Shown here: positions 17,528 to 17,832 of the stretch, piece after piece
Layout: every line of letters begins with the position of its first letter
How positions within the stretch are numbered: the first letter of the stretch is position 1
Assembly (NCBI RefSeq): GCF_001553565.1
Contig: NZ_CP014228.1
Span: forward strand, 2,294,001-2,358,000
DNA from: Actinomyces radicidentis
GTDB lineage: Bacteria > Actinomycetota > Actinomycetes > Actinomycetales > Actinomycetaceae
Reading direction: 5' to 3'
Length of the DNA: 64,000 nucleotides
Position numbers and translations under genes: made by a program
Notes under the pieces: model-generated
The model's input: only the letters and a program-made list of their open reading frames with translations
What the model was told of the DNA's origin: nothing
Databases searched by the model: none

Positions 17528-17618
17528 GCCCCCGTAGCTCAGCGGTTAGAGCAGCGAGCTTATACCTCGTCCGTGCCTGATAAGCACATGGTCCTGGGTT
17601 CGAATCCCAGCGGGGGTA
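17528..17618 (+). tRNA. tRNA-Ile, unusual long form with UAU anticodon arm plus a GAU-like hairpin
   Basis: A 91-nt tRNA. The acceptor stem GCCCCCG/CGGGGGT (one G-U), D stem GCTC/GAGC and T arm CTGGG-TTCGAAT-CCCAG are clear. The arm at the standard position is GCGAG-CTTATAC-CTCGT, giving anticodon TAT (isoleucine AUA). The variable region is 23 nt and contains GTGC-CTGATAA-GCAC, whose 7-nt loop is the textbook tRNA-Ile(GAU) anticodon loop, followed by ATGGTC like a normal class I variable loop. Isoleucine tRNAs are normally class I with 4-5-nt variable loops. Omitting the TAT hairpin (17 nt) leaves a nearly normal 74-nt tRNA-Ile(GAT). CCA is not encoded. Identity as Ile is likely; which loop is read is uncertain. 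Confidence 0.75.
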
Positions 17619-17623
17619 CCGGG

Positions 17624-17752
17624 CCCCAGGTCTCCTGGGAGCACCCAGCCCCCAGGTCTCCTGGGAGCACCCAGCCCCCAGGTCTCCTGGGAGCACCCAG
17701 CCCCCAGCTCTCTGGGAGCACCCAGCCCCCGGACCATCCGGGAGCACCCAGC
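17624..17752. repeat. five tandem ~26-bp hairpin-forming repeats between two tRNA genes
   Basis: Units at 17624-17649, 17650-17675, 17676-17701, 17702-17726 and 17727-17752. Each is a short palindrome followed by a constant GAGCACCCAGC linker. The first three have CCCAGG-TCT-CCTGGG, the fourth CCCAG-CTCT-CTGGG and the fifth CCCGGA-CCA-TCCGGG. Changes in one arm are matched in the other, so the stems are kept. The last two bases of unit five form the start of tRNA-Leu. The array could terminate or process the tRNA transcript. Confidence 0.85.
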
Positions 17753-17832
17753 CCCCGTGGTGGAATCGGTAGACACAGCGGCCTTAAAAGCTGATGCCCT
17801 CGGGCGTACGGGTTCGAGTCCCGTCGGGGGCA
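17751..17832 (+). tRNA. tRNA-Leu(TAA)
   Basis: An 82-nt class II tRNA. The acceptor GCCCCCG/CGGGGGC is fully paired, the D region GTGG-AATCGGTAGAC is typical of leucine tRNAs, the anticodon loop CTTAAAA gives TAA, and the long variable arm is closed by GCCC/GGGC. The T loop is TTCGAGT and CCA is not encoded. It starts inside the last repeat unit, 132 nt after the unusual tRNA-Ile. Confidence 0.94.

Follow-up and report, generated by a model that had tools for sequence, protein, structure and literature searches.

A tRNA-Ile(UAU) with a second, GAU-bearing hairpin in Actinomyces and in phages: a proposed division of the anticodon's tasks between two hairpins

The tRNA gene at 17528–17618 of the window (the whole stretch of 64,000 nucleotides that was analysed, from the complete, 3.05-Mb genome of Actinomyces radicidentis) specifies a tRNA-Ile(UAU) that carries, next to its anticodon arm, a second hairpin whose loop contains the other isoleucine anticodon, GAU. 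Our preferred reading, which we regard as fairly probable from the comparison of sequences, is that the jobs of the anticodon are divided within this molecule: the UAU arm would decode AUA and the GAU hairpin would be read by isoleucyl-tRNA synthetase (IleRS), the gene being phage-borne and captured by an ancestor of Actinomyces. In its broader form this describes a class of tRNA whose two anticodons serve different readers, the synthetase at one hairpin and the ribosome at the other, a class that would have arisen or spread in phages as a way of avoiding host lysidine modification and have become the only AUA decoder of one genus; this too we hold to be probable on balance.

Bacterial AUA codons are normally read only after the essential enzyme TilS has turned C34 of a tRNA into lysidine, because IleRS and the ribosome read the same anticodon. 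The bacterial synthetase normally wants G34 or lysidine-34 and accepts U34 poorly, and that of Escherichia coli charges tRNA-Ile with U34 poorly. Because IleRS reads the anticodon and performs poorly on U34, a UAU tRNA has a charging problem in most bacteria. A tRNA with unmodified C34 is left uncharged by IleRS while its L34 form is charged (PMC11938285), the anticodon and the discriminator are strong isoleucine determinants, and t6A37 is a strong determinant for IleRS of the bacterial type (PMC9976931). Replacement of TilS by a UAU tRNA-Ile has been reported for Mycoplasma mobile, some Bifidobacterium and Neorickettsia (PMC8450103; PMC4013482). Actinomyces resembles these TilS-less bacteria in having UAU for AUA and in the absence of both TilS and tRNA-Ile2(CAU). 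However, the M. mobile tRNA-Ile(UAU) was reportedly found by Taniguchi in 2013 to be a class I molecule charged by an adapted IleRS, and the Actinomyces tRNA departs from that type in possessing a second hairpin with GAU. As proposed here, it would perform the same task as tRNA-Ile2(CAU) and TilS, offering AUA as isoleucine in a state acceptable to IleRS, but with a second RNA hairpin in place of a modified base.

In the open-access literature we found no published description of a tRNA-Ile(UAU) whose variable arm has a GAU loop. The split function, if shown, would be a new principle. It would provide a second, RNA-only solution to AUA reading beside the lysidine of TilS, imply that an arm other than the usual one can take over anticodon identity, which bears on codon reassignment, make phages independent of host modification, and supply a chassis for genetic-code engineering. 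The prediction is testable in a common genus of mouth bacteria and in cultured phages of Vibrio, Synechococcus and Acinetobacter.

Structure of the tRNA and its conservation in Actinomyces

A preliminary description of the locus reported a 91-nt tRNA with two isoleucine anticodon loops, and its account of the sequence and of the two hairpins is exactly right, ARAGORN and Rfam agreeing on a tRNA. ARAGORN returned a tRNA-Ile(UAU) at 17528–17620, and the Rfam tRNA model matched 17528–17618, placing the UAU arm at the anticodon position and treating the GAU hairpin as an insert. The features, in window coordinates, are as follows.

17528–17618, forward strand: the whole gene, a tRNA-Ile(UAU) that also bears a GAU hairpin; length of 91 nt as far as discriminator A73; ARAGORN, and Rfam RF00005 at 60.7 bits
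17528–17534, forward strand: 5' strand of the acceptor stem, GCCCCCG, paired with 17611–17617 (CGGGGGU); includes a G1.U72 wobble pair
17537–17552, forward strand: D arm, GCUC-AGCGGUUA-GAGC
17554–17570, forward strand: anticodon arm, GCGAG-CUUAUAC-CUCGU; anticodon UAU at 17561–17563; identical in 49 of 49 Actinomyces copies
17571–17572, forward strand: linker between the hairpins, CC in the window gene; 2–3 nt and variable in sequence across the genus
17573–17587, forward strand: second hairpin, GUGC-CUGAUAA-GCAC; GAU at 17579–17581, equivalent to loop positions 34–36; proposed IleRS recognition element
17588–17593, forward strand: 3' linker, A-UGGUC, corresponding to positions 44–48, the variable loop of a class I tRNA
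17594–17610, forward strand: T arm, CUGGG-UUCGAAU-CCCAG

The discriminator is followed by CC at 17619–17620, so that CCA is only partly encoded in the genome. UAU occupies the standard position of a complete cloverleaf. The loop of the second hairpin, CUGAUAA, had been claimed to be identical to the anticodon loop of tRNA-Ile(GAU), and it does match that of the genome's own tRNA-Ile(GAU); likewise, the class I-type variable loop said to follow the second hairpin is borne out by the 3' linker, which has the appropriate length (6 nt in the window). Two alternatives had been offered for the molecule, either a class II tRNA-Ile(UAU) or a tRNA-Ile(GAU) with an inserted hairpin. Both fit, but they describe one topology and not two, namely a pair of tandem hairpins placed after the D arm and before the variable loop.

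The variable region as a whole measures 23–24 nt in Actinomyces copies and is therefore not the short loop of class I. Like the class II tRNAs for Ser, Leu and Tyr, the Actinomyces tRNA has a long variable region with a hairpin, but their build involves a loop of 3–4 nt and a 3' linker of 0–3 nt, unlike the 7-nt loop and 6-nt linker seen here. The nematode nev-tRNA-Ile(UAU), which has a tRNA-Leu-like variable arm and is charged with Leu in vitro (PMC4300185), also combines UAU with a variable arm; the window tRNA differs in bearing the isoleucine anticodon loop CUGAUAA and in its bacterial and phage carriers. Allo-tRNAs have acceptor/T stems of 8/4 or 9/3 bp, a long variable arm and a non-Ser anticodon, UAU being among the commonest (PMC7609411). 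The window tRNA shares the long arm and the UAU with them, but has stems of 7 and 5 bp and a GAU loop as its hallmark. The group in which we place it, the double-hairpin class, is defined by a UAU arm, a second loop of 7 nt with the form NNGAUNN, a 3' linker of 5–6 nt and A73, all of which it possesses.

The gene is present in all 49 Actinomyces genomes searched, with 92–100% identity, which disposes of the decayed copy that the preliminary description had named as the result that would count against it. A DNA search of 12 other genera of the family did not find it, and an order-wide pattern search for UAU tRNAs, in which a strict T arm was required, produced none besides those of Actinomyces. 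Among the 49 copies the second hairpin takes just two forms, GUGC-CUGAUAA-GCAC and GUGU-CUGAUAA-ACAC, which differ by one compensated pair and leave the loop invariant; the linker on its 5' side varies in both length and sequence. For comparison, 15 different variable regions occur among 33 copies of tRNA-Leu(UAA), the neighbouring gene. Such near-invariance of the second hairpin across 49 genomes, with a single and compensated stem change, is not what a relic would be expected to show.

A consensus fold of 23 distinct Actinomyces sequences contains the 5-bp UAU arm and the GAU hairpin, with a stem of 4 bp and a loop of 7 nt. When the tRNA sequence of the window is folded by itself, a different pairing for the second hairpin comes out 0.4 kcal/mol better (-36.0 against -35.6 kcal/mol). 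The second hairpin of the window tRNA is accordingly a comparative prediction, decided by conservation and the genus consensus and not by single-sequence folding.

Between the window tRNA and tRNA-Leu(UAA), at 17624–17756, there is a tandem array comprising 5.2 copies of a GC-rich palindromic unit of 26 bp (CCCCAGGTCTCCTGGGAGCACCCAGC).

TilS, tRNA-Ile2(CAU) and the reading of AUA

The preliminary description raised the question of whether tRNA-Ile(CAU) and tilS are missing, and both proved to be absent across Actinomyces. When the tRNAs of the source genome were typed, they included one tRNA-Ile(GAU) and the window tRNA, and the only tRNAs with CAU were the initiator and elongator tRNA-Met; there was no third CAU tRNA, that is, no tRNA-Ile2(CAU), among the genome's tRNA matches. 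A sequence pattern for CAU tRNAs found two per genome in 10 of 10 Actinomyces, and an extra, Ile2-like one in 12 of 12 genomes from the rest of the family, although it missed one tRNA-Met in one family genome (G351).

TilS is absent from the source genome, and none of 49 Actinomyces genomes has a match over the curated cut-off. Weak matches to the TilS model do occur in Actinomyces, at about 25 bits and over the first 46–63 positions only, and these are probably other PP-loop enzymes. By comparison, a TilS match was present in 35 of 35 other genera of the family sampled, exceeding the cut-off in all but one genus, in which the matches were truncated; TilS was likewise matched in 25 of 25 genomes of the order and in all 14 control genomes.

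Judged by its anticodon, the window tRNA is the only tRNA left in Actinomyces predicted to be able to read AUA, and it is because no other reader of this codon is left that we assign AUA decoding to the UAU arm. The codon is rare, contributing one of 507 isoleucine codons in window open reading frames that were picked by composition. The most economical reading is that tRNA-Ile2(CAU) and TilS were replaced once by the window tRNA, at the base of the genus, and that it has been the sole AUA reader since.

Two further tRNA genes of the source genome are unusual. At 2629829–2629902 of the genome lies its only tRNA-Leu(CAA), which stands apart from the remaining leucine tRNA genes in having a variable loop of the short, class I kind; it is either an unusual leucine tRNA or a tRNA with a different identity. 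A third copy of tRNA-Glu(CUC) (L025, complement 169–243) accompanies two intact copies; ARAGORN does not read its anticodon cleanly ('ctca'), and it is likely to be a decaying duplicate.

A viral family of double-hairpin tRNAs and the origin of the Actinomyces gene

In IMG/VR, a scan for UAU followed by CUGAUAA brought to light, among the matches listed, about 20 contigs with real tRNA-Ile(UAU) genes of the double-hairpin build. Three further viral scans left the variable region unspecified, and so did not demand the GAU loop; in these, ARAGORN identified at least 131 distinct UAU tRNAs with long variable regions. All of the viral scans required particular T-arm sequences, and the proportions given here refer to the matches listed. 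Among these, 122 of the 131 distinct class II UAU tRNAs have a 7-nt NNGAUNN loop closed by a stem in which at least three of four base pairs form, and the same hairpin test applied to other class II tRNAs on the same contigs was positive in 3 of 367. The hairpin's retention in 49 of 49 Actinomyces genomes and in 122 of 131 viral tRNAs, against 3 of 367 controls, argues that it is not a product of chance.

The stem of the viral hairpin covaries. It occurs in 31 combinations, 96.4% paired, and all four pairs have changed on both sides; the covariation score is 0.995, compared with 0.204 after shuffling. Entry to the alignment required at least three of four pairs to be formed, or was by selection on the loop, which raises the share of paired cells without enlarging the difference from the controls. 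Among the matches listed, the 3' linker measures 5–6 nt in 120 of the 122 double-hairpin tRNAs (Ser, Leu and Tyr tRNAs mostly have 1 nt) and the discriminator is A73 in 120 of 122. With a linker as long as a class I variable loop, the molecule is best seen as a class I tRNA furnished with a second anticodon-like arm.

The GAU loop itself, with G34, A35 and U36 present in every case by selection, has C32 in 96 of 122 and A38 in 100 of 122, but position 33 is A in 118 and position 37 is U in 84 (among the matches listed). Loops of the CAGAUUA type are commoner in the class than CUGAUAA, the Actinomyces subtype, which retains U33 and A37. A decoding anticodon needs U33 and A37, and the failure of most viral loops to keep them points to a reader other than the ribosome, the hairpin having the look of a recognition site rather than a decoding site.

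The cultured carriers are the Vibrio phages henriette 12B8, Achelous and V6Aob, Synechococcus phage SynMITS9220M01 and Acinetobacter phage vB_AbaS_qsb1, in which the double-hairpin tRNAs are annotated plainly as tRNA-Ile or not at all. Many viral examples sit in phage tRNA arrays, and in phage Achelous a normal tRNA-Ile(GAU) directly precedes the double-hairpin tRNA. Two matches (L072 and L073) turned out to be tRNA-Ser, and a match in Streptomyces phage Alone3 to be tRNA-Ile(GAU). In one scan admitting both short and long variable regions, 27 of 50 viral UAU tRNAs had the long form (among the matches listed). In at least about 30 tRNA-Ile(UAU) genes of viruses the variable loop is short and ordinary, for example in L307, L324 and L236.

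With the variable region removed, the seven viral tRNAs nearest to that of the window, of 2217 compared, are all UAU tRNAs with the GAU hairpin, the closest (L216) having 89% identity among the matches listed; the closest tRNA of the source genome is tRNA-Lys, at 78%. An origin from tRNA-Val(UAC), which has a similar anticodon arm, was considered and set aside, its identity being 75% and the phage tRNAs nearer at 89%. By these comparisons the window tRNA is assigned to a phage-borne class of tRNAs. The gene is likely to have passed from a phage to the bacterium and less likely to have gone the other way, as judged from a short tree, because the viral class is diverse and, in a scan of genomes for the CUGAUAA loop, the bacterial genus is single.

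That scan, of genome contigs for UAU followed by CUGAUAA, gave only one UAU tRNA recognized by ARAGORN outside Actinomyces, the other matches being due to chance and lacking a tRNA. The exception lies on contig JARGGA010000127.1 (L164, complement 1058–1155) and has a long variable region with CTGATAA. The contig is binned with Thorarchaeota and carries an array of nine tRNAs including the UAU tRNA; it is probably a phage contig inside an archaeal bin.

The reader of the second hairpin

Under the reading that we prefer, the first arm would read AUA on the ribosome through UAU, and the second hairpin would present the GAU loop of ordinary tRNA-Ile to IleRS and so bring about charging. Phages carrying such a tRNA would be independent of host TilS, and the ancestor of Actinomyces, having captured a phage gene, would then have lost tilS and tRNA-Ile2(CAU). 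The geometry that would bring IleRS into contact with a hairpin so placed is hypothetical. Since the two hairpins follow the D arm and precede the variable loop, it is conceivable that they exchange: each could perhaps stack beneath the D arm, and the exchange would put the GAU hairpin in the place of the anticodon arm for IleRS. The preliminary description had suggested that the loop in the variable arm mimics tRNA-Ile(GAU) for IleRS. The loss of TilS and tRNA-Ile2, the conserved GAU core of the viral loops and their disregard of U33 and A37 speak for recognition of this kind, but charging is a step that we infer, and an altered host IleRS would be a rival route to it. Furthermore, mimicry in its simple form is weakened, since the U37 of most viral GAU loops precludes t6A37.

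The IleRS of Actinomyces is of the eukaryote-like type. Among the columns of the enzyme conserved in the family, only four are fixed and different in the three Actinomyces examined, and the only radical change is that of Trp817, which lies inside the anticodon-binding domain (PF08264, 767–911). Position 817 is T, A, M, S or V in 30 of 30 Actinomyces, and W in 27 of 27 other genera of the family and 25 of 25 genomes of the order, all or nearly all of which have TilS. The residue is W in Thermus thermophilus and K in the human and yeast enzymes, and the human and yeast cytosol has a UAU tRNA-Ile. From this comes the foremost of the rival explanations: that the altered synthetase of Actinomyces reads UAU directly, as in M. 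mobile, and that the GAU hairpin is left over from the phage gene or has only a structural role. The distribution of Trp817 suits this and is the strongest reason to doubt the hairpin's share in Actinomyces. However, a relic should drift, and the near-invariance of the hairpin, down to its one compensated change, is not the behaviour of a relic; moreover, loss of the tryptophan might reflect either tolerance of U34 or release from lysidine reading followed by free drift, both of which would fit the loss of TilS. Nor does the doubt extend to the phages, whose hosts, where known, keep TilS, so that an adapted IleRS would leave the viral class unexplained; Vibrio cholerae, for instance, has tilS (PMC11938285). 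We consider this rival unlikely.

Alternatively, the hairpin could be kept for another protein, whether a tRNA-modifying enzyme, a synthetase against which it acts as an antideterminant (MetRS, LeuRS or SerRS), or the anticodon nucleases of phage defence, for which it would be a decoy. Decoys could pay in the phage tRNA arrays that house many of the viral examples, but they need not be confined to UAU tRNAs or retain the exact isoleucine triplet, and nearly all of the 367 other class II tRNAs listed from the same contigs lack a GAU hairpin (all but 3). Given also that the copy on the chromosome stands in for decoding machinery that is essential, we think this quite unlikely.

There is a small chance that one tRNA serves all three isoleucine codons, the hairpins swapping so that the GAU loop reads AUC and AUU on the ribosome. 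The Actinomyces loop, with its U33 and A37 and its identity to the normal GAU anticodon loop, would be suited to such a role, but most viral members lack both residues, and a separate, normal tRNA-Ile(GAU) exists in Actinomyces and in phages such as Achelous. Charging with Leu or Ser, as in other class II tRNAs, would leave AUA ambiguous or reassigned, and is suggested by the long variable region together with A73 and by the in vitro leucylation of the nematode nev-tRNA-Ile(UAU) (PMC4300185); it is very improbable, given an anatomy unlike that of Ser, Leu and Tyr arms (a linker of 5–6 against about 1 nt, a loop of 7 against 3–4 nt), a GAU triplet that it leaves unexplained, and the want of another AUA reader in Actinomyces. 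Finally, although the design may plausibly have arisen when part of an anticodon arm was duplicated, a decayed or hybrid tRNA-Ile pseudogene produced in that way is scarcely credible for a gene that is intact and conserved in 49 of 49 genomes, is the only AUA reader there, and belongs to a wide viral family with a covarying stem.

The first base pair of the acceptor stem deserves separate mention. The G1.U72 wobble pair of the Actinomyces gene recurs in 66 of the 122 viral members (for example L339, L342 and L240; among the matches listed), and it is possibly another identity or antideterminant element.
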